A stretch of DNA of 64,000 nt from Paenibacillus swuensis (lineage in GTDB: Bacteria; Bacillota; Bacilli; Paenibacillales; DY6), in NCBI RefSeq assembly GCF_001644605.1, contig NZ_CP011388.1:1907001-1971000 (forward strand). The letters run 5' to 3'. The notes beneath the pieces are model-generated. The model made no database searches. It was not told the DNA's origin and saw nothing but the letters and a program-made list of their open reading frames with translations. A program made the translations under genes and the position numbers. This document shows, piece after piece, positions 6,017 through 30,931 of this stretch. The number at the start of each line of letters is the position of its first letter. Position 1 is the first letter of the stretch.

Positions 6017-7888
6017 ATGGACAAACAGTCTGACGTTAAATCTGCCCCAAACAACGATACGTATTTAACTTATGCCGTAACCCCCGAAGGGGACATTGCC
6101 TGGGAATGGAATGTGTCTTCGGCTATGCAAGCCATGATTACAAGGCATATGAAACAACCATGGCATGAAATCCCGTTGGTGATGCGAACCTACACCTTAT
6201 CTTCGGATGACCGGGAGGCGGCCTATGAAGATTTCCCGATTAGCGATGAACCTTTAGCGGTTAATAGAACAAGGTGCGGGCTAACCTCTCCTTGGGCCGA
6301 GCTAGGTTACCTATCGCATGGGAATCCGTTTATCCCGATCTTACGTTGCGGCCAAGATCCCGATAAGCCGTTTCCTATTATTATATCGACCGGGGACATG
6401 TCAAATGTAACAGTAGGCGGTTGGTGGGGTACTGAAGTTTTTGACGGGTATGGTTTAGGGTATAAAGGGAATGATGGGCTGCCCCCGCGGTCAGACGATT
6501 CAGCCATGGGTAGACCGCCTTCATACGCAGCACCTTCATCATTCAGCGCAGCCCTGTCTTCAATGAGCGCAGCCCTGTCACCATTCAGCGTAGCACCGTC
6601 TTCAATGAGCGCAGCCCCTTTACCTTCAGCTGTATCCCGTGGTTGCAAAAGTAATTTTCCCGCTGTACTGATGCTTAGTTGGGAGTACCCGCCCCATGTT
6701 GTTGGAGGATTGGCCGCTTCTGTGGAAGGGTTGTCCCGCGGACTGTCCAGGCTAGGGTGGGAGGTTCATGTGCTCACGATCCAAACGGAGCATGCCCCCG
6801 CTTATCAATGGAGCGACGGCGTTCATATTCACAGAGAGCCTGATTTACGTTCAGCTACCCCTCTCCCCTTCATGGAATGGGTGTTCGCGATGAATCTGGC
6901 TTTCTTGCGAGGCGCGGAGAGGTTGACCCGCGAAGGCTGTCGGTTCGGGCTCATCCATGCCCACGACTGGTTAACCGGCGCAGCCGCGGCCCAGCTTAAA
7001 CAAAGCTGGAAGGTACCGCTTGCCGCCACAGTCCATTCGACCGAGGCGGGCCGTTCTTTAGGTCATCAAGGAAGCCGAGGTCAGATGGCTATCCGCGAAG
7101 CCGACCGCGCCCTGGCGTATGAAGCGGATCATGTTCTCGTCTGCAGCCGCTATATGGCTGCTGAGATCTTCGCGGAGACGGGAATTTCAGTGTCGAAGCT
7201 TACGGTTGTGCGCAATGGCGTGGATGCTGAAGCATGGGCCGGGCAGGACGCTGCCGGCGACCCGAAGGACATCCGTGAAACAAGCCATGGCTTCGTTGGC
7301 GAGGCGGCTGACTTGTCCAGTCGGTTCGAGCCAGCCGGCGCCGGGGAGCAACACATCGTGTTCCTCGGCCGGCTCGTTCACGAGAAAGGCGCGCAATACT
7401 TGCTGCGCGCCATGCCGCTCTTGCTGCGGCGATGCCCGCAGGCGCGGCTGACGCTCGCCGGCGCGGGCCCGTACGAGCCGCAGCTGCGCGCGCTCGCCGC
7501 GGAGCTCGGGCTCGCCGCGCCGCGCGTGCGCTTCGCCGGCTTCGCGGGCCCCGCCGCGCGCCGCGCGCTGCTCGCGGGAGCGGCCGTCGTCGCCGTGCCG
7601 AGCCTCTACGAGCCGTTCGGGCTCGTAGCGCTCGAGGCGATGGCGGCGGGCCGCCCGCTCGTCGCCTGCGCCAGCGGCGGCCTGACCGAGCTCGTCGAGC
7701 ATGGCGTCGACGGGCTTCTGGCTGCGCCGCGCAGCGCGGAGGCGCTGGCGGAGCAGCTGGCCGCCGTGCTTGGCGACGGCGCGCTCGCCGCGCGGCTCGC
7801 GGCAGGGGCTCAGCGCAAAGCGCTGAGCTGCGGCTGGGCGGAGCCGGCCGCCGAAGTTAGCCGCTTGTATGCGCGGCTGTTAAACTGA
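6017..7888 (+). CDS. DUF4912 domain fused to a GT4 glycosyltransferase
   Basis: The first about 150 residues resemble DUF4912 (IAWEWNV near the start; WAELGYLSHGNPFIPILR near its end). A low-complexity linker follows, made of four 7-residue units (FSAALSS, MSAALSP, FSVAPSS, MSAAPLP). After it comes a GT4 glycosyltransferase: LSWEYPPHVVGGL nucleotide-sugar loop, IHAHDWLTG, and the C-terminal E-P-F-G-L-V-A-L-E-A donor-binding motif. The fold is like bacterial glycogen synthase, but acceptor and donor are unknown. I chose the ATG at 6017 because GGGAGTG sits 6 bases upstream; the frame is open further upstream, overlapping the KTSC gene. The last third is far richer in GC than the first. Confidence 0.8.
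   Translation: MDKQSDVKSAPNNDTYLTYAVTPEGDIAWEWNVSSAMQAMITRHMKQPWHEIPLVMRTYTLSSDDREAAYEDFPISDEPLAVNRTRCGLTSPWAELGYLSHGNPFIPILRCGQDPDKPFPIIISTGDMSNVTVGGWWGTEVFDGYGLGYKGNDGLPPRSDDSAMGRPPSYAAPSSFSAALSSMSAALSPFSVAPSSMSAAPLPSAVSRGCKSNFPAVLMLSWEYPPHVVGGLAASVEGLSRGLSRLGWEVHVLTIQTEHAPAYQWSDGVHIHREPDLRSATPLPFMEWVFAMNLAFLRGAERLTREGCRFGLIHAHDWLTGAAAAQLKQSWKVPLAATVHSTEAGRSLGHQGSRGQMAIREADRALAYEADHVLVCSRYMAAEIFAETGISVSKLTVVRNGVDAEAWAGQDAAGDPKDIRETSHGFVGEAADLSSRFEPAGAGEQHIVFLGRLVHEKGAQYLLRAMPLLLRRCPQARLTLAGAGPYEPQLRALAAELGLAAPRVRFAGFAGPAARRALLAGAAVVAVPSLYEPFGLVALEAMAAGRPLVACASGGLTELVEHGVDGLLAAPRSAEALAEQLAAVLGDGALAARLAAGAQRKALSCGWAEPAAEVSRLYARLLN
6540..6623 (+). repeat. Four 21-bp in-frame tandem repeats (linker)
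   Basis: Four units of 21 bp based on CATTCAGCGCAGCCCTGTCTT and CAATGAGCGCAGCCCTGTCAC lie end to end inside the glycosyltransferase gene. They encode the Ala/Ser-rich linker between the DUF4912 and GT4 domains. Confidence 0.85.
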
Positions 7889-8013
7889 TGTTTTTTGGTG
7901 CAATCTGATGAAACTTGCACATTTAAGTAGGCAAGGCCGTGCCCTTTTGCTACACTATTGCTAAATCATTACAGAGAAATCAATAATGTTCCTATGGATA
8001 AGGAAGTGGTAGA

Positions 8014-9975
8014 GTGCCTAGACACTTAGTCGTTGGAAACGGAAAATTTCTGGTCAATCTGGATCAGAACAGCTATATTCGAGACATTTACTATCCTTAT
8101 GTCGGCCAGTTAAACCATGTCAGCGGCTACAAGTTTCGGGTCGGTGTCTGGGTAGACGGTCGGTTCAGCTGGCTCAGTGACGCCGGTTGGGAGTTTAAGT
8201 TGGCCTATGCCGAGGATTCACTGGTTACGGAAGTAACCGCGGTGCACGCGGAATTGGGTATTTCCCTGCTTATGAATGACGGTGTCCATCAACGGGACAA
8301 CATCTATCTCAAGCGGATTGCCATCCGTAATGAAGCTTCCACAGCCCGCGAAGTTCGATTGTTCTTCAACCAGGATTTAGTCATTAACGAGACGGAGGTC
8401 GGCGATACTTCCTGCTACTATCCTTATAACAATACCGTTTTTCATTACAAAAAAGATAAATACTTCATGTTCAACGGCATGACCTCTAACAGCGGTATAT
8501 TTCAATACACAACAGGCGTGAAACGGTTCCACAACGCCGAGGGCACATGGAAAGATGCCGAGGATGGACATCTCATGGGTAACCCTATTGCCCAAGGCTC
8601 TGTGGACAGTACGCTTTCCCTCAGATTAGTCCTTGCGGGCGGCGAAGAACAAGATGCTTATTACTGGATGAGCGCCGGCGGCAGCTTGGAAGAGGTTAAG
8701 AAACTGGATGCTTATGTAAAGGATAGTCATCCGGGGAAATTATTGGATCGCATTCGGATCTATTGGCAGCGATGGGTGAACAAGGCGGACCGGGACTTTG
8801 CCGATCTTGGCGAGGGTGTTGAGCGATTATTCAAGCAGAGTTTGCTTATTGTTCGCACCCAAATTGATCAGAACGGCGCAATCATTGCCGCTAACGATAC
8901 GGATATTCTGCAATATAACCGGGATCATTACAGCTATATGTGGCCTCGCGACGGCGCGCTGGTTGCTTACTCCATGACGGTTGCGGGTTACCAAGGCATG
9001 ATTGAGCCTTTCTTCCATTTCTGCGCCGCGGCCCTGACCCCGGAAGGCTACTTGCATCACAAGTATAACCCGGACGGTACGGTAGGCTCTTCCTGGCATC
9101 CTTACGTTCACAACGGGATGGAGCAGCTTCCGATTCAGGAGGATGAAACAGGACTGGTTCTGTTTACGTTATGGCAAGATTATTTGCATCATGGCGATAT
9201 CGAACTGCATCAGTCTCTATACCGGACGTTAATCCGCAAAGCGGCCCGTTTTCTTGTAGAATATATGGAACCGACTTTGGGGCTGCCCAAGCCAAGCTAT
9301 GACTTGTGGGAAGAGCGTTACGGTATTTACACCTTCACGACTTCGGCCGTGTATGGCGGACTTGTGGCTGCGGCCAACTTCTCGAATTTATTCGGTGACG
9401 ACCGCAGGTGCCAGCAATATCGTAATGCCGCGGAAACTGTGAAAGCCGGGATTCTGAAGCATCTATGGAATGAAGAGGAAGGCCGTTTCGCCAGAGGTCT
9501 CTTCCTGAAGGACGGTCGTTGGGAGCAAGATATGACGCCGGAAAGCAGTGTGTACGGCATCTTCGAGTTTGGCGTGTTACCAGCTGCCGATGAACGTGTG
9601 GCGCGGACCATGAAATCGATTAAAGAGAAGCTGTCCGTGAAGACTCAAATCGGCGGAATTGCACGTTACTATCACGATTACTATTTCCAGCGTTCTTCGG
9701 ACATTGAACAGGTACCGGGAAATCCCTGGATCATCTGTACCTTATGGGTTGCGGAGTACGAAATCGAAGCCGCACAGTCGTTAGCCGATCTGGCAGCACC
9801 CAAAGCGACGATTGACTGGGTTGTGGCCCATGCGATGGAAAGCGGAGTCCTGTCCGAGCAGTTGGATCCTTTTGACGGAAGTCCGGTGTCCGTAGCTCCG
9901 TTGACCTGGTCTCATGCCACGTTCGTGCTGGCCTGTACCAAATATATGAAGAAATACAAAGAGCTGTCCAAGTAA
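8014..9975 (+). CDS. Glycoside hydrolase family 15 (glucoamylase-like)
   Basis: A 653-residue protein with the two-part GH15 plan: an N-terminal beta-sandwich (about 1-270, starting MPRHLVVGNGKFLVNLD) and an (alpha/alpha)6 barrel. The barrel holds YNRDHYSYMWPRDGALVA, a hallmark of the family, and ELPIQEDETGLVLF around the general acid region. There is no signal peptide, so it probably acts in the cytoplasm on maltodextrin, isomaltose or related alpha-glucosides. The GTG start follows an AAGGAAG about 8 bases upstream. It lies directly after the GT4 gene on the same strand, suggesting a shared glucan metabolism. The gene ends in a strong terminator. Confidence 0.85.
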   Translation: MPRHLVVGNGKFLVNLDQNSYIRDIYYPYVGQLNHVSGYKFRVGVWVDGRFSWLSDAGWEFKLAYAEDSLVTEVTAVHAELGISLLMNDGVHQRDNIYLKRIAIRNEASTAREVRLFFNQDLVINETEVGDTSCYYPYNNTVFHYKKDKYFMFNGMTSNSGIFQYTTGVKRFHNAEGTWKDAEDGHLMGNPIAQGSVDSTLSLRLVLAGGEEQDAYYWMSAGGSLEEVKKLDAYVKDSHPGKLLDRIRIYWQRWVNKADRDFADLGEGVERLFKQSLLIVRTQIDQNGAIIAANDTDILQYNRDHYSYMWPRDGALVAYSMTVAGYQGMIEPFFHFCAAALTPEGYLHHKYNPDGTVGSSWHPYVHNGMEQLPIQEDETGLVLFTLWQDYLHHGDIELHQSLYRTLIRKAARFLVEYMEPTLGLPKPSYDLWEERYGIYTFTTSAVYGGLVAAANFSNLFGDDRRCQQYRNAAETVKAGILKHLWNEEEGRFARGLFLKDGRWEQDMTPESSVYGIFEFGVLPAADERVARTMKSIKEKLSVKTQIGGIARYYHDYYFQRSSDIEQVPGNPWIICTLWVAEYEIEAAQSLADLAAPKATIDWVVAHAMESGVLSEQLDPFDGSPVSVAPLTWSHATFVLACTKYMKKYKELSK

Positions 9976-24087: not shown

Positions 24088-25266
24088 TCATCGAATCTGC
24101 GCATACCGTTCTTCCAGATCGGCGCTGCTGCTTTGCGAACCCGCCTCTTCAAACGACTCCAACAGCTTGAAAAAGATACGGTCCCATGTCTGCTCTTGAC
24201 TATAAGCACGCCCCCGCGCAGCCATGTTTTCCCTCAGCAGTGTATTATCATACAACAGGGTCAACGCTTCTGTAAATGCGTCGATATTACCAACCGGACA
24301 CAGCAACCCTGTCAACCCGTGTTGAATATTGTCGCGAACTCCCCCGCTGTCCGCCCCGATGACAGGGGTCCCGCAGCCCATAGCTTCGAGAACGACATTA
24401 CCGAACGTCTCGGTCGCGGACGGAAATAAAAACACGTCCGCCGCGGAATACAATTCCGCCAATTCCTCACCATGTACAAATCCCGTAAAACGAATATCTT
24501 CGTCTTCTTCATAACGTCCCGCGAGTTCCTTATAAAGCGGTCCGTCTCCGGCAATAACCAGATAGCTATTGCTCTTTACCCGCTCCGGAAGATTTTCAAA
24601 CGCAGCAATCGCAATATCCACACTTTTTTCCGGCGCAAGCCTTCCGACAAACAGGATCATATGCTTAGATTCTGAAAATCCCCAACGTTGACATGCTTCT
24701 ACACGGCTTGTTCTGGGGTAAAACCTTTGTAAGTCCAATCCGCGTCCCCAAATTTCCAGGTTTCGCATCCCTTTACTTTCCAGATGGGTCAAGGTTGTCG
24801 GTGACGGAACATAGATTTTGCGGGCATCTTGATGAAACCAGTGCATATACTTCCACAGGATAGCCTCCATCCATTGGAGCTTATAGTACGAAAGGTACTG
24901 GTCAAAGTGGGTATGATAGGACGCGACAAACGGAACTTTATGTTTTTTGGCGTAATGAATGCCGTGAAGTCCCAGATTAAAGGGGGTTGCAACATGGATC
25001 AGCGTAGGATTAAAGGCCTTCAGCATGGATTTCATCTGGATAGGATTGGGAATGGCCATGCGACATTCAGGGTACAATAAGAAGGGAATACTGTAAAACC
25101 GCTCCACCATCGTCTGGTCGGCGGTCTGCACGTTCTGCGGCGTATCCGGCGCGAATACCTTACATGCTATCCCCCGTGATTCCAGGTATTGCACCCAGCG
25201 CCCCAAAGTACGGGCTACTCCGTTGACATCAGGCAGAAAGGTGTCAGTAAACAAGGCAATTCTCAT
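24088..25266 (-). CDS. GT4 glycosyltransferase (lipid glycosylation type)
   Basis: A 392-residue GT-B enzyme starting MRIALFTDTFLPDVNGVARTL, very like bacterial mannosyl/glucosyltransferases acting on diacylglycerol or phosphatidylinositol lipids. The C-terminal donor site is PSATETFGNVVLEAMGCG (EX7E: E at TETFG, E at LEAMG). The N-terminal acceptor region includes YHTHFDQYLSYY. It is cytoplasmic or peripheral, with no membrane helix. GGAGG precedes the ATG. It is divergent from a PAP2 phosphatase and an MGDG-synthase-like enzyme, supporting a lipid or envelope-glycan job. Confidence 0.88.
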   Translation of the reverse strand: MRIALFTDTFLPDVNGVARTLGRWVQYLESRGIACKVFAPDTPQNVQTADQTMVERFYSIPFLLYPECRMAIPNPIQMKSMLKAFNPTLIHVATPFNLGLHGIHYAKKHKVPFVASYHTHFDQYLSYYKLQWMEAILWKYMHWFHQDARKIYVPSPTTLTHLESKGMRNLEIWGRGLDLQRFYPRTSRVEACQRWGFSESKHMILFVGRLAPEKSVDIAIAAFENLPERVKSNSYLVIAGDGPLYKELAGRYEEDEDIRFTGFVHGEELAELYSAADVFLFPSATETFGNVVLEAMGCGTPVIGADSGGVRDNIQHGLTGLLCPVGNIDAFTEALTLLYDNTLLRENMAARGRAYSQEQTWDRIFFKLLESFEEAGSQSSSADLEERYAQIR

Positions 25267-25513
25267 TACGACCCGGCCTCCTTCAAGTCTTGTCGGTTAA
25301 TCAGTAAATAACCATCATCCTATTTCTATGGGACAACTAGAAAGGATATGACCCTGAATGAAACCTTTACCTTACTATAATCGTTTAATGTTAAGCGAAA
25401 GTAAGGGCTGCATTAAATTTGTATCGCTTTAATTTAGCATTCCGATAACATTCCAGTAACAATGAAGCATTATAATGGATGTTAGGATTAAATTATTCCT
25501 GGGAGGGGTTTTT

Positions 25514-26041
25514 ATGAGTCGTGTCGTAACCTGGTTACAGCGTCATGAAAATCGCATGTTTTTCTGGGCCAATCATAAACTAAATCATGCGGTGTTGGAC
25601 TACCTGTTCTCCTATATCACTCACTTGGGCGGAGCCACGTTTACCATTGCGTGTTCTGTGCTAACGGCCATCTTCGCACCCGCACCTTGGAATACGGTTG
25701 GTTTACAAGCCATGACGGCGCTTGCCGTGAGTCACATTCCCGTGGCGATTATTAAGAAGAAGTATCCTAGATTACGTCCCTATCTCGTATTGCCGCAAAC
25801 CAATATCGGTAAGAGCCAATTGACGGATCACTCTTTCCCTTCAGGTCATACAACCGCTGCCTTCTCTGTGCTGGTTCCGTTTATTATGGCTTATCCGATG
25901 TTAAGCACCGCTCTGATTCCGCTTGGCGTCCTGGTGGGATTATCACGTATGTATCTTGGGCTGCACTATCCGTCCGACGTTCTCGCAGGCTGTGCCGTTG
26001 GCACGATCACCGCAATGGCTACGGTTGCATTCTTTCATTAA
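25514..26041 (+). CDS. PAP2-family membrane phosphatase
   Basis: A 175-residue integral membrane protein with all three phosphatase motifs: KKKYPRLRP, PSGHT and SRMYLGLHYPSD. Such proteins dephosphorylate undecaprenyl-pyrophosphate, phosphatidate or phosphatidylglycerophosphate at the outer face of the membrane. The ATG at 25514 has GGGAGGGG upstream, so the extra 13 codons of the longer frame are unlikely. It is followed after 68 bases by a diacylglycerol-type glycosyltransferase. Confidence 0.92.
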   Translation: MSRVVTWLQRHENRMFFWANHKLNHAVLDYLFSYITHLGGATFTIACSVLTAIFAPAPWNTVGLQAMTALAVSHIPVAIIKKKYPRLRPYLVLPQTNIGKSQLTDHSFPSGHTTAAFSVLVPFIMAYPMLSTALIPLGVLVGLSRMYLGLHYPSDVLAGCAVGTITAMATVAFFH

Positions 26042-26109
26042 AATCGATATTGTTAAGAGAATGCCATTGTTACGATAATGTAAATCTTGATTAAGATAGG
26101 TGAGCTGTC

Positions 26110-27255
26110 GTGAGAAAGAAAAGAGTTCTGTTGCTATCGGAGGGGTTCGGCGCCGGACATACTCAGGCCGCCCACGCGCTTTCCGTCAGCTTGCGTAAGC
26201 TCTCACCCGGCATCCAAACCCGGGTATTCGAGCTCGGAAGCTTCTTGCATCCAACAATAGGACCTTGGATTCTGTCGGCCTACCGTAAAACGGTTACGAC
26301 GCAACCCAGACTTGTCGGTATGATGTACCGTTCAAATTATAAGAAATCGTTAAACCGTTTTACTCAATTGGCCTTGCATCGGATATTCTATACCCAGGCC
26401 ACCACAATAATAAGGCAGCTTCGTCCGGACGCTATTGTGTGCACTCACCCGATTCCGAACGCGGTCATCTCCAGGTTAAAGAGACTGGGTTTGAACGTGC
26501 CGCTCGTGACGGTCATTACCGATTACGATGCCCACGGAACGTGGATTTATCCTGAAGTTAACAAGTATATGGTCTCCACCGCGGAAGTGAAACAAAAACT
26601 GCTGCAAAGAGGCGTACCTTCCACCAAGATTCAAATTACAGGCATTCCTGTACATCCGAACTTTTGGGAACAGCATAATAAAGATGAAATTCGGCAGCAA
26701 TTCGGTTTAAAGAGTATGCCTACGGCGCTTGTAATGGGCGGAGGTTGGGGTCTGGTCAACAACCAGGAGCTTCTCGAGCATATGGCCAACTGGAACCGCG
26801 ATGTTCAAATTATCATATGTTTAGGAAGCAATGAGAAAGCAAGAGCTTCTCTTGCGGAGAATCCGATTTTCCAAAAAGCTAACATCCATCTGCTCGGTTT
26901 CACGAAAGAAGTCGACAAGTTAATGGAAGTCTCGGACTTATTGATTACCAAGCCCGGCGGCATGACCTGTACAGAAGGCATGGCTAAAGGCATACCGATG
27001 CTTTTCTATTCACCTCTTCCGGGACAAGAGGAAGAGAATTGTCATTATTTCACGCAACTGGGATTCGGCGAGCCCATTTCATCCTTCCAGACGGTCACGG
27101 ATTGGTTTGACCTGTTGAAGGATGATTATGAAACCGTGTCAGCCAGACGTCTTGAAGTCACCCGTACCATTAACCGTTACAACCCTAATGATTCATCGGT
27201 TGCCATCCTGCAGATGCTCGAGCGCAACCACCAAATGGTTAGCACAGCCCCTTAA
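26110..27255 (+). CDS. MGDG synthase/UgtP-like glycosyltransferase
   Basis: A 381-residue GT28-type enzyme. The N-terminal MGDG-synthase domain starts VLLLSEGFGAGHTQAAHAL (G-x-G-H motif) with TDYDAHGTW. The C-terminal UDP-sugar domain has VMGGGWGLVNN and KPGGMTCTEGMAKGIPMLFY. Relatives (B. subtilis UgtP) move glucose from UDP-glucose to diacylglycerol, making glycolipids and the lipoteichoic-acid anchor. The GTG start has AGGTGAG upstream. It is co-directional with the PAP2 gene and ends in a terminator. Confidence 0.88.
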   Translation: MRKKRVLLLSEGFGAGHTQAAHALSVSLRKLSPGIQTRVFELGSFLHPTIGPWILSAYRKTVTTQPRLVGMMYRSNYKKSLNRFTQLALHRIFYTQATTIIRQLRPDAIVCTHPIPNAVISRLKRLGLNVPLVTVITDYDAHGTWIYPEVNKYMVSTAEVKQKLLQRGVPSTKIQITGIPVHPNFWEQHNKDEIRQQFGLKSMPTALVMGGGWGLVNNQELLEHMANWNRDVQIIICLGSNEKARASLAENPIFQKANIHLLGFTKEVDKLMEVSDLLITKPGGMTCTEGMAKGIPMLFYSPLPGQEEENCHYFTQLGFGEPISSFQTVTDWFDLLKDDYETVSARRLEVTRTINRYNPNDSSVAILQMLERNHQMVSTAP

Positions 27256-27306: not shown

Positions 27307-27645
27307 TTAAGGAATGTCGCTTTCGGACCCGGGTATAGATACTGAAACCTGCACCTCAGCGTCTGGCACCAACATTGTCGCATCCGAGCCCTCTGACTCC
27401 TTGGACTGCGATTTAAGCTTCTCCTTCCGGGAGGAGGCCATATGATCAACAACCCCCTGCAAAGCGTTCACACCGCCTACCGTCAGAATCAACGTCGATA
27501 ATATCATCGTCAGATTATCCGGGATGTCGCCGTCCTTCATACACAAAGCCAAACCATACCCCATTCCCGCGAGCAGGCATAGAATTAAAGCGGAATATTT
27601 AGCCTCATCCAAACTCAGCAACCCTTGATACCATTTAGGTTTCAC
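27307..27645 (-). CDS. Small two-helix membrane protein of partner-switching operon
   Basis: A 112-residue protein I do not recognise. It has two membrane segments (about 17-36, SALILCLLAGMGYGLAL; about 44-64, NLTMILSTLILTVGGVNALQG). A polar C-terminal tail (about 70-112) is rich in Ser/Glu. Size and layout are holin-like, but there is no lysis gene nearby. It starts 6 bases after the coiled-coil membrane protein stops and is the last gene of the five-gene operon, so it may form a membrane complex with that protein. Confidence 0.7.
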   Translation of the reverse strand: MKPKWYQGLLSLDEAKYSALILCLLAGMGYGLALCMKDGDIPDNLTMILSTLILTVGGVNALQGVVDHMASSRKEKLKSQSKESEGSDATMLVPDAEVQVSVSIPGSESDIP

Positions 27646-27651
27646 CGTTAT

Positions 27652-28395
27652 TCACCGATCCCCGATAATAATTTTCACTACACCGTTACTGTTCACCCTG
27701 TGCAGAAGTCCTTGAGTTTCCGCGGCATCGATGGCTCTTTTAAGCTCCCCTCCGGTATATTCGACGCCCTGATACACCAGCAGATCAACTACTTCCAATA
27801 AGGAAACTTCTGTCCCCGGCTCAAATTGCTTTCGAATCAACGCGTCCAGCGCTTGATCAATAGCTGACGGTTGTACTCGGGCTGAAAATCGGCCGCGGAT
27901 TTTGGCGATCTCCGATTCGAATTTCTTCCGATATTGTGCCGAGATCGCCTTTTCTAAATCTTCGGATACCTCGAAACCATTCTCCCGTAAGGAGTGAAAT
28001 ATAGAGCCTACGTCTTTGGAAGCTTTATCTGTCACCTTGTTCAACATGGAAATGAGATGATCATTGGATTCCTTGGAGTCGCGGCGCATGTCCGACAATT
28101 CCTGTTTAATTTCCTTAAATTCGTCTACTTTACTGCTGATTTGATGAAGAGCTTGCTGCACTTGCCTGTTCTGATTGGACGATTCAAAGGACTGAAAGTA
28201 TGAATACACCATGGCCACCAAGGCAAGCAGGATGGAAGCCAACGTGGACCCGAATGATATTTGATTAATGAGCTCCTGCGCGGAATGAAACCGCCATACA
28301 CTAACGAGGATCATAAACAGGACCAGATCGGTTATGATAAAAAGATAAATCAGATCCTTATGGTTCCGCCATCGCCATCCCGGCTCTCCGCTCAT
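27652..28395 (-). CDS. Membrane coiled-coil protein with winged-helix-like tail
   Basis: A 247-residue protein of unknown family. Two membrane helices (about 15-34 and 46-65) are followed by a long coiled coil (about 70-135, NRQVQQALHQISSKVDEF...MRRDSKESNDHLISMLNKV). The C-terminal domain (SAIDQALDALIRKQFEPGTEVSLLEVVDLLVYQGVEYTG split into helices, then a short sheet VNSNGVVKIII) looks like a winged helix. I chose the ATG at 28395 because it shares an ATGA overlap with the STAS stop and has GGGGCGG upstream. Encoded in the partner-switching operon, it is a candidate output or target of the STAS/kinase pair. That is inference. Confidence 0.7.
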   Translation of the reverse strand: MSGEPGWRWRNHKDLIYLFIITDLVLFMILVSVWRFHSAQELINQISFGSTLASILLALVAMVYSYFQSFESSNQNRQVQQALHQISSKVDEFKEIKQELSDMRRDSKESNDHLISMLNKVTDKASKDVGSIFHSLRENGFEVSEDLEKAISAQYRKKFESEIAKIRGRFSARVQPSAIDQALDALIRKQFEPGTEVSLLEVVDLLVYQGVEYTGGELKRAIDAAETQGLLHRVNSNGVVKIIIGDR

Positions 28396-28775
28396 TGAAT
28401 CCGCCCCCGAAGAACAGCCTGAGCTTCTTCCGGGCTCTCGCATAAGGTGAACAGTAAATCAAGCTTCGCAATCAAAAACAATTCCCGCAATAACTCGTCA
28501 TTCACCACAATCGCCATTCGACTCCCGTTCACACAATACCTTTTATTAAAATGAATAAGCACTCCAAAACCGGTACTATCAATTAATGTCAGTTTCGAAA
28601 GGTCCAGCACATAACCGGGCCGAGCCTCTACCAGCCTGCTGAGCATCTCCTTGGCAGCTTCACTGTTTCCGTAAGTGAGCTTACCGGCGGCCTGGATCCA
28701 CTGGATGTCCTCCGTCAACTTGGAGGTAAACGATATTCCGGCCGGATCTCGCTTGCCATAAGGTTCACGGTTCAT
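28392..28775 (-). CDS. STAS-domain anti-sigma factor antagonist (RsbV-like)
   Basis: A 127-residue single STAS domain. The phosphorylatable serine lies in LTLIDSTGFGVLIHF, the position of Ser in RsbV/SpoIIAA (IDSSGLGVL). In known systems the dephosphorylated form binds the HATPase kinase and frees its other partner. It overlaps the kinase gene by 11 bases and the next gene by 4 (ATGA), so all are translationally coupled. Confidence 0.88.
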   Translation of the reverse strand: MNREPYGKRDPAGISFTSKLTEDIQWIQAAGKLTYGNSEAAKEMLSRLVEARPGYVLDLSKLTLIDSTGFGVLIHFNKRYCVNGSRMAIVVNDELLRELFLIAKLDLLFTLCESPEEAQAVLRGRIQ

Positions 28776-29205
28776 TTATACAACCTCCTTTCTTGCGAAA
28801 TTCTATGGATACGATGCCAAACTCATTTTGCTCAACCCTCAATTCATCAGACAAATGTCTCGCCAGCAACAATCCCCGACCGCTTTCCTCGCTGAGCATC
28901 TCCTCGAAATGACGATCCTGATTCCGCCGTATGGCTTCAAGGGAATTATACTGTCCGGTGTTGGTAACCTTCACAATAATATCCTCATGCTCCAGACGAA
29001 TGGTCAACGCAATGGAACTGCAGTCCGCCGCCTTTCCGTAAGCGCGGTAAGTAGCTTCCATCGCGTTTATGATCAGCTCATGAATGGCAAAACACAGTTT
29101 GCGGGTATGAACGGTATCCAGACGACTTAGAAGGTGCTCGGTCATTTGGTCCAGATGATCCATGTTCTCCCAGCTTGGCACACATTCAATTGTCATTCGA
29201 AACAT
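28765..29205 (-). CDS. RsbW-like serine kinase / anti-sigma factor
   Basis: A 146-residue GHKL-ATPase domain. The N-box is HELIINAMEAT (Glu and Asn for Mg-ATP), and the glycine box is EESGRGLLLARHLSDELRV. Relatives (RsbW, SpoIIAB) phosphorylate the STAS partner and bind a sigma factor. The ATG at 29205 is preceded by AGGAG (10 bases) and lies inside the end of the phosphatase gene (20-base overlap). No sigma gene is in the cluster, so its sequestered partner is unknown. Confidence 0.87.
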   Translation of the reverse strand: MFRMTIECVPSWENMDHLDQMTEHLLSRLDTVHTRKLCFAIHELIINAMEATYRAYGKAADCSSIALTIRLEHEDIIVKVTNTGQYNSLEAIRRNQDRHFEEMLSEESGRGLLLARHLSDELRVEQNEFGIVSIEFRKKGGCINEP

Positions 29206-30931
29206 GAGATTCACGCTCCTCGGGAGTGTCGGACCAATGACCCGCATCCAAACAGACAAGGCATATGTCATCGGGTCTTTCGGTTAATGCCTGGATGTCT
29301 TTATCCAATAAATTCATCACGGATTGGTTGTTCCCGTGCCGGCAAGCGGTTAACACATTCCTTATGGCATCCGTTGTAAGACCGGGTCTGCCCTTATAAA
29401 CTTCAAATAATCCATCCGTGTACATCAACAACCTGCAATGTTCGCCGTACTTGAAATGACCGGAGTGATACGCCGCTTCCCGCACAATGCCGAGCGTAAT
29501 CCCGCCCCGATCCAATTTCACGAATTGACCTTCATCGGTTAACGCGATTCCATGCGGATGTCCCGCATTGACGTAACGGACCGTATGGTCGCGCGTGTCC
29601 AATGTTACGCAAAGGGCCGTGCACAACACGGTTTCCGTATTGCTTTTGCTATGGAACAAGTCGTGAACATGATAATTGAGCCGTTTCATAATAGCTGCAG
29701 GATCATCCATGTACGTGAGCAGTTCCTGCAGGAAGGAATGGATATGCATGCCGACAAGGGAGGAAGCCACACTATGACCCATGACGTCAATGAGAATGAC
29801 GGTACACTTCTCCCCGTTCGTATGCCATGTATACATATCTCCGGCGAGCTGTTCGGAGGGCAATTGTTTCCCGTGAATATTCAATCTTGTACCTTCATAC
29901 CACTTAGGCAGCACGGATTGTTGAATACGCTTCGATAACTCCAATTCCACGGCAAGCTTCAGTTCCGAACGCCTGCGCTCTGTGATATCCATCAAGGTAC
30001 CCAAGGTGCCGGCGTATCGGTTCTCCTCATCTCTTCTGGACTGGGCAAACCATTCCACCCAACGATAATCGCCGTCCGCGGTAACAATTCGAAGCTCACG
30101 CTTGATCCAAGGCACTCGAAAACCGGACAACCCCTCCCCTGCTCCTTTAAGAAGGAGCGCATCCTCCGGGTGGATATACAGGCGAACAGGCATCTGCAAT
30201 GAATTCCCCACCGTGAATCCCGTGATCTCCGTCCAAGCGGGATTCAGGAAAGTCCAGCGTCCCTCTTCATCGGTTTGAAAGATGACTTCTTTCACATGAT
30301 CCACCACCGAACGGTAGCGGTCCGACATGGACTTATAATTGTTCTCGCTGATTCTTAATTGGCGGAAGAGCCGGTTCGATTCCAGAATATACTCCAAGAT
30401 GTAAAAAGCTACACTGCCCCCGACAACGGCGATCAGCGAGGTTTGCAAATACAACAACAGCACTTCGGATTTCCTCATGGCGAACCACAGGAACCCGCCG
30501 ACGATAGGAATCTGAATTCCGTTAAACAATTGAAACGCCTTCCAGCGGACAATAGGGACTTTGGCAAGTGAACCGAGTAAGACGGCTATCATTAACATGA
30601 CGGCGGTGGCGCTGAAAGAAATGATATTTGAATCAAAAAAGGTCAAGCGGCCGATCGCAATAATTACGGCTGAAACAAGTGCCGAAACCATTCCTCCATA
30701 AACAGCCGCGAGCACAACGACAACATGTCTTAAATCCGTCTTTACCGTATCCGTTACCGGGATGCTGAATACAATCAGAATGATTCCCAGTCCTCCGAGC
30801 AACACCCCCAAACGAACGCGTATTCCGATCGGCGCATCAAGGGCGGGAGGCTCCATTTTGAAAAAACGACCCATAATAAACAGATACGAAAGCAGCACGC
30901 ATAAATTGACAGCCAACTCCTTAAACACCAT
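29186..30931 (-). CDS. Membrane PAS-PP2C (SpoIIE-type) phosphatase
   Basis: About 581 residues. The first about 190 hold six or so membrane segments of the 5TM-LYT/histidine-kinase-like sensor type. A PAS domain follows (about 215-330: VVDHVKEVIFQTDEEGRWTFLNP...MDITERR). Then comes a PP2C/SpoIIE domain with metal-binding Asp residues in LAGDMY, VILIDVMGHS, MYTDGLFE and RPDDICLV. It should dephosphorylate the STAS protein in response to a membrane or cytosolic signal. The ATG at 30931 has GGGAGGACG upstream; the longer frame to 31054 lacks a start signal. First gene of the operon. Confidence 0.9.
   Translation of the reverse strand: MVFKELAVNLCVLLSYLFIMGRFFKMEPPALDAPIGIRVRLGVLLGGLGIILIVFSIPVTDTVKTDLRHVVVVLAAVYGGMVSALVSAVIIAIGRLTFFDSNIISFSATAVMLMIAVLLGSLAKVPIVRWKAFQLFNGIQIPIVGGFLWFAMRKSEVLLLYLQTSLIAVVGGSVAFYILEYILESNRLFRQLRISENNYKSMSDRYRSVVDHVKEVIFQTDEEGRWTFLNPAWTEITGFTVGNSLQMPVRLYIHPEDALLLKGAGEGLSGFRVPWIKRELRIVTADGDYRWVEWFAQSRRDEENRYAGTLGTLMDITERRRSELKLAVELELSKRIQQSVLPKWYEGTRLNIHGKQLPSEQLAGDMYTWHTNGEKCTVILIDVMGHSVASSLVGMHIHSFLQELLTYMDDPAAIMKRLNYHVHDLFHSKSNTETVLCTALCVTLDTRDHTVRYVNAGHPHGIALTDEGQFVKLDRGGITLGIVREAAYHSGHFKYGEHCRLLMYTDGLFEVYKGRPGLTTDAIRNVLTACRHGNNQSVMNLLDKDIQALTERPDDICLVCLDAGHWSDTPEERESHVSNDN

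Follow-up and report, generated by a model that had tools for sequence, protein, structure and literature searches.

A run of five genes in Paenibacillus swuensis, lying within a stretch of 64,000 nucleotides that we call the window (bases 1907001-1971000 of a single 5.01-Mb contig), encodes the three components of a partner switch followed by two membrane proteins. A first-pass annotation of this DNA had described it as a partner-switching operon without a sigma factor, had assigned both membrane proteins to the module on account of the tight gene spacing, and had proposed the larger of the two as the regulated target. We find that the first four genes recur in the same order in five other species, a Paenibacillus clade, and constitute a real conserved unit, whereas the fifth is absent from all other copies. 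The five genes are as follows.

29186..30931, minus strand: gene one, membrane PP2C phosphatase of the SpoIIE/RsbU type, 581 amino acids, with a 5TM-LYT-like membrane region, PAS and PP2C domains
28765..29205, minus strand: gene two, serine kinase of the RsbW/SpoIIAB fold, 146 amino acids, assigned by HATPase_c_2, Foldseek and alignment
28392..28775, minus strand: gene three, STAS protein of the anti-anti-sigma type, 127 amino acids, assigned by Pfam STAS, with Ser67 in a DSxG motif
27652..28395, minus strand: gene four, membrane protein, 247 amino acids, with two predicted membrane helices, long helices and a C-terminal acidic winged helix
27307..27645, minus strand: gene five, small two-helix membrane protein, 112 amino acids, GTG start, not a conserved member of the module

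The locus and its recurrence in Paenibacillus

All five frames run head to tail, with overlaps of 20, 11 and 4 bases (the last one, between genes three and four, being ATGA) and then a gap of 6 bases, so that the frames and coordinates agree with the tight array described earlier. Shine-Dalgarno-like stretches can be made out by eye upstream of the PP2C gene (GGAGG, with an ATG start), the kinase gene (GAGGAG) and the STAS gene; a promoter and terminator scan of the locus stayed at chance level. Gene one matches the SpoIIE/PP2C family (PF07228, 1.4e-32), which is the phosphatase expected of a partner-switching module, as well as PAS folds (best 5.5e-11) and 5TM-5TMR_LYT (1.3e-5), and gene three matches STAS (PF01740, 1.6e-11). 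Genes four and five match no Pfam or NCBIfam family above cut-off, and each contains two hydrophobic stretches, which for gene five bears out its description as a two-helix membrane protein. The reading frames of the locus and its flanks include no sigma factor gene such as a SigB- or SigF-type system would carry, as the annotation had claimed.

When protein four was searched against an even sample of 392 genomes of the order (E-value at most 0.001), 22 genomes matched. Besides the own genome, these are five in which the match extends over most of the protein at 46-52% identity and 16 in which it is weaker and mainly N-terminal. In all five species with a close relative—Paenibacillus sp. UNC451MF, 32352, RC67 and H1-7, and P. 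doosanensis (loci L074-L078, of which L075 is 32352 and L078 is H1-7)—the order PP2C-kinase-STAS-protein four is kept, and the PP2C identity is confirmed by Pfam in each. This recurrence is beyond chance in our judgement, for which no probability was computed. Two peptide patterns scanned against 84,980 species returned the same five carriers only, although relatives without those patterns would escape it. Reading the frames of all six four-gene copies by eye revealed no neighbouring sigma gene; in particular, none follows the STAS gene in the five relatives, where the annotation had suggested that one might undermine its proposal. The five-gene order that it had proposed to look for elsewhere is, among these copies, found in the window alone, and it is the four-gene order that recurs.

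The five other copies share one syntenic site, flanked by an upstream GFO/IDH/MocA oxidoreductase and an opposite-strand alpha/beta hydrolase (Pfam on one neighbour pair). The site in the window differs, which implies that the unit moved, was passed on, or had its flanks rearranged. A kinase profile applied at 1e-8 matched eight of the 392 genomes, namely the own genome, the five carriers, G069 and G256. G069 has an intact kinase frame at the module's syntenic site (L098:5790-7010) and no other whole module gene, and is apparently a decayed copy: tblastn yields weak remnants of the PP2C (74 residues, E 0.005) and of the final 18 residues of protein four (E 0.1); at 0.1 nothing there matches STAS, a STAS-like fragment being readable by eye. 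Among 99 relatives searched, none of which belongs to the host's family, the STAS protein found generic STAS matches in 22 genomes.

The assignment of the last two genes to the module thus holds for gene four and fails for gene five, where tight spacing alone was misleading. When searched by tblastn, neither the five other copies of the module nor the decayed G069 locus contains a match to gene five. Its search matched 6 of 296 genomes, the own one included, with ten hits outside the own genome. Six of these were examined, and in five the relative adjoins a phage-type lysin gene (amidase-type in L100-L103, a GH25 lysozyme in L104), while in L105 it lies about 2.4 kb from an amidase-type gene; Pfam was run on the lysins of L102 and L104. 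The annotation had named occurrence apart from the module as evidence against membership, and this is what we observe for gene five. The window protein has no match in PHROG, and its relative in L102 weakly matches a holin PHROG (E 0.064). Gene five was probably added locally, and its product is akin to a small protein that occupies the holin position in phage lysis cassettes, the holin identity itself being putative.

The locus is flanked on one side by a MGDG-synthase-like glycosyltransferase with PAP2 and GT4 genes, and on the other by a TrmB-type methyltransferase and a radical-SAM gene. The GT4 glycosyltransferase, PAP2 phosphatase and MGDG-synthase-like genes adjoining the module (window 24088-27255) might form a membrane glycolipid cluster.

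The kinase, the STAS protein and other sigma-less switches

The kinase matches HATPase_c_2 above cut-off (PF13581, 6.7e-9), and the top Foldseek matches of its predicted model are SpoIIAB (1tid/1til, 4.2e-6) and RsbW (6m37, 4.3e-5), as befits an RsbW/SpoIIAB-type kinase; Glu43 and Asn47 of the N-box are retained, as is the G2 box. Nothing meaningful came from sequence searches of the PDB with the kinase or the A4, A5 and A6 profiles. In the STAS protein, whose relatives in the PDB are TM1442 and SpoIIAA, the presumably phosphorylatable Ser67 is invariant in all six module copies and is also found in the genome's RsbV-like protein and SpoIIAA. Phylogenetically, the seven module kinases (G069 included) form one clade (98/96) next to other sigma-less kinases, in a tree of 17 sequences that omits the kinases of L140 and G256 and the genome's second RsbW-like protein. 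As side observations on the genome's own switches, two RsbW-sigma pairs of the SigB type lie close together (L111:2668-3890 and 7266-8848), and the second RsbW-like protein has no N-box Asn.

A class-level kinase search at 1e-6 matched 10 of 279 genomes. Six of the nine loci outside the own genome (L134-L139) contain a methyl-accepting chemotaxis protein (MCP) gene, confirmed by Pfam, and none was seen within about 3.6 kb in L133, L140 and L141; G256 (L099) likewise combines a PP2C-kinase frame, a STAS gene and an MCP gene. The PP2C is confirmed by Pfam in L133, L134, L136 and L141 and was recognized by eye in the others, L140 being unchecked, and no sigma gene was seen in the frames displayed for these class-level loci. 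In L134 the PP2C includes a response-regulator receiver domain, which, along with the MCP loci (L134-L139, L099), hints at a pathway from chemotaxis to partner switching.

Protein four and its wider family

Protein four is predicted to consist of two membrane helices, separated by a loop of about 12 residues, and of long helices ending in a winged helix, which we assume to face the cytosol. The winged helix spans residues 178-242, where the predicted helices and strands give a three-helix core and a two-stranded wing, and is supported by block means of 76-83 in the predicted local distance difference test (pLDDT) for residues 181-240; outside it the model, built with six sequences, is poor (mean pLDDT 56). 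The best VIA-align rows for the C-terminal domain are to winged helices (Z-score 8.0-9.6, mostly 60-80 residues). Model and structural alignments agree on the winged-helix-like end that the annotation had read from the sequence. The aligned structures include Fur-type and GntR-type regulators, and a cullin WHB, MCM and a Wadjet subunit score equally well, while Foldseek on the winged helix returned no match under 0.001. The last 75 residues are net acidic (-3 to -5) in the five operon proteins listed; some of the free-standing relatives are equally acidic there and two are slightly basic. Being acidic and devoid of such a Foldseek match, the domain was downgraded as a candidate DNA-binding element.

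Of the three products compared, protein four shows the strongest constraint in the three closest pairs of copies. Among UNC451MF, 32352 and RC67, the ratio of nonsynonymous to synonymous substitution rates (dN/dS) is 0.046, 0.045 and 0.055 for protein four, 0.189, 0.164 and 0.225 for the kinase and 0.198, 0.144 and 0.192 for the STAS protein, with dS exceeding 1 throughout and gene four of RC67 compared over 213 codons. Strong purifying selection of this kind indicates that protein four is not a passenger.

Relatives of its membrane part do occur elsewhere. We assembled 20 free-standing loci, 14 from the order search (13 of the 16 weaker-match genomes, leaving out G106, G239 and G387) and six from a class-level search that matched 11 of 279 genomes; one of the 14, in G152, is open to doubt, its match (E 1.8e-4) lying within a frame of 611 codons. 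Reading of the frames revealed switch genes beside none of the 20. The annotation had held that wide occurrence of gene four away from the rest would count against its membership; the weaker, membrane-part relatives stand apart, and all five close relatives are found with the switch.

Domains beside or fused to the relative were recognized in seven of the 20 loci, with Pfam run on selected neighbours and the others untested or without a match. Abi_C adjoins the relative in L016 and L017, HEPN_Cthe2314 in L020 and PIN_8 in L067, DUF4145 lies two genes off in L146, and in L072 and L145 a PemK/MazF domain is fused to the relative itself. The latter two proteins (L072:5795-6724, L145:589-1371), joining a two-helix domain to a PemK/MazF-type toxin domain, are candidate membrane-anchored RNases. 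The pair of Abi_C and two-helix winged-helix genes (L016:5621-7120 and L017) is nearly identical in two genera and looks like an undescribed defence-type pair, and two further free-standing relatives (L142:2979-3725, L144:3072-3701), situated near HNH endonuclease and terminase-like genes, look by eye like occupants of prophage slots. The window protein matches phrog_32514, a phage family without assigned function, at 2.7e-6, as does the L068 relative at 5.5e-8. No relatives were found by tblastn of protein four and of L068 against plasmid and phage collections, or by single-sequence scans of genome contigs and viral contigs with protein four. In the protein-four tree, which omits L017, L069, L073, L076 and L143, L016 and L066 fall together with the operon proteins (98/99).

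What could the fourth protein do?

The likeness of the module to SiaABCD suggests a four-gene, sigma-free partner switch in which protein four is most likely the output; we hold this reading tentatively, at slightly less than an even chance, and consider protein four plausible as the regulated target. The membrane PP2C would receive a signal and dephosphorylate Ser67 of the STAS protein, with the SpoIIAB-fold kinase counteracting it. Protein four would then take its oligomeric or docking state from the phosphorylation of the STAS protein, or from the kinase that is set free, probably through binding of its helical stalk or of its acidic winged helix. Protein four itself would be a membrane-anchored effector, a helical stalk ending in the winged helix, and gene five would stand outside the switch. 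Output is favoured over input because of the constraint on protein four and because of its small loop: some 12 residues offer little room for a ligand sensor.

Several observations weigh against this reading. The binding of the STAS protein or the kinase to protein four is argued by analogy. The constraint gap, drawn from pairs with the high dS already given, narrows in the distant pair 32352/H1-7 (L075-L078), where dN/dS is 0.129 for protein four, 0.179 for the kinase and 0.138 for the STAS protein; and, measured by identity to the window copy, the STAS protein (44-53%) and protein four (45-50%) are conserved to about the same degree, the kinase reaching 37-41%. Frameshifts, which may be sequencing errors, interrupt the PP2C of UNC451MF and the region near the end of gene four in RC67, so that four of the seven loci (window, 32352, P. 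doosanensis and H1-7) are apparently intact. The kinase presents a further difficulty. In all seven kinases of the clade (G069 included) the Asp of the G1 box is replaced by Asn, Asn82 in the window, whereas the genome's SpoIIAB, its two RsbW-like proteins and the eight other sigma-less kinases readable by eye (L133-L139, L141) all have the Asp. In other GHKL proteins this Asp contacts adenine, and the corresponding Asn mutant of Hsp90 loses ATP binding. The substitution may weaken ATP binding, and hence the phosphorylation cycle, and raises the question of whether this ‘kinase’ still uses ATP.

The remaining objections point to an input or anchoring role. Protein four might sense the state of the membrane and signal to the kinase or the PP2C, or serve as an anchoring scaffold, with the true target elsewhere in the cell. 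A PAS domain is found in only three of the six module PP2Cs (window, UNC451MF and P. doosanensis) and is absent from 32352, RC67 and H1-7, which means that not every module PP2C is an evident sensor; the nearest sigma-less relatives mostly have an MCP receptor gene in the locus, and a receiver domain on the PP2C of L134; and the two-helix relatives fused to PemK/MazF or placed beside Abi_C, HEPN and PIN genes resemble tethers or sensors. Set against this, sensor parts usually evolve fast, and protein four changes more slowly than the kinase and the STAS protein in the closest pairs; its loop is tiny, and the window PP2C has a membrane and PAS region of its own. We regard an input or scaffold role as possible, if on the whole doubtful.

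Could a sigma factor be involved after all, encoded in trans? Elsewhere the genome encodes SpoIIAA-SpoIIAB-SigF, a set resembling RsbV-RsbW-SigB and a second pair of RsbW and sigma factor (all named by eye), and trans inputs into SigB are common, so that the module might feed into one of these systems. Its kinase, however, shares only 17, 15 and 13% identity with the genome's SpoIIAB, RsbW and second RsbW, respectively, and is split from the first two in the tree (99/99), and the module has its own STAS protein and a co-conserved fourth gene, with no sigma gene beside the other copies; such an additional input seems improbable. The winged helix might instead make protein four a membrane-tethered transcription factor, similar in logic to CadC or ToxR, and Fur-type and GntR-type regulators are indeed among its many structural matches. 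The net acidic C-terminus argues against contact with DNA, and protein-binding winged helices (cullin WHB, MCM) and the Wadjet subunit score as well as the regulators, leaving this explanation very improbable.

A broader version of the output reading is speculative and, in our estimate, rather unlikely to hold in full: that a switch with an altered kinase ATP pocket was recruited to restrain a membrane-anchored effector rather than transcription or cyclic di-GMP, the effector deriving from a two-helix family otherwise met at prophage-like or RNase defence-toxin sites, or fused to MazF. Whatever its role, protein four is a conserved and strongly constrained candidate partner in the same operon, and the question of the target of the switch is thereby made testable.

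The module among known systems

As two-helix membrane proteins with a helical part, the SLATT effectors resemble protein four, which falls below the curated Pfam and NCBIfam cut-offs. Membership in this group was tried and rejected (SLATT_5 at 16.6 bits with a cut-off of 60; hhalign probability 0.6% with three SLATT_5 proteins); the relative in L067 reaches 20.5 with a SLATT cut-off of 29.5, and there are weak scores for SLATT_4 and RTasSLATT as well.

With the SpoIIE-SpoIIAB-SpoIIAA-SigF and RsbU-RsbW-RsbV-SigB systems the module shares the three switch components, the SpoIIAB fold and the Ser of the DSxG motif, and it differs from them in having no sigma factor, in the Asp-to-Asn change of the G1 box and in the extra membrane protein. 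The MCP loci of Bacilli have related kinases, STAS and PP2C genes and a long-helix membrane protein in the same locus; in these, an MCP receptor replaces the two-helix winged-helix protein, and the kinase keeps the Asp of the G1 box.

Partner switching without a sigma factor is in itself nothing new (Sia, Syp, Btr, Rba, Hmp). Of the systems built from a PP2C, a kinase and a STAS protein, Syp of Vibrio fischeri, Btr of Bordetella, Rba of Rhodobacter and Hmp of Nostoc have no established cognate sigma factor, and for Syp, Rba and Hmp it is called unknown what the unphosphorylated STAS protein acts on directly (PMC8256260, in the portion of the review available). That portion names no conserved membrane partner gene, unlike what we observe for the module (PMC8256260). 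The literature on partner switching with Paenibacillus, with MCP/PP2C/STAS, and with winged-helix or membrane partners, in a coverage including few subscription papers, does not report the module.

The closest known parallel is SiaABCD of Pseudomonas aeruginosa. Its PP2C, too, is located in the membrane. In both systems, a PP2C, a kinase and a STAS-like protein are accompanied by a fourth co-transcribed product that bears a long helical stalk, according to the available parts of three papers (PMC7647112, PMC8457831, PMC7278518). SiaABC operates as a partner switch (PMC7647112), and SiaC, the STAS-like protein, binds the stalks of SiaD (PMC8457831), again as far as the available parts go; for the module, an action of the STAS protein on the fourth protein is suggested by this analogy only. 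The differences are considerable: SiaD is a diguanylate cyclase, whereas protein four has two membrane helices and no enzyme match, GGDEF included; SiaC is phosphorylated on Thr68, whereas the conserved residue of the module is Ser67; the module kinase matches RsbW/SpoIIAB models only; and the module PP2C scores 42 bits with the SiaA model, whose cut-off is 700. A membrane protein of a new kind, its role as output, input or scaffold being unproven, may occupy the fourth slot of a SiaABCD-like switch in Gram-positive bacteria, and if that protein is the output, partner switching would in this case reach a membrane protein directly.

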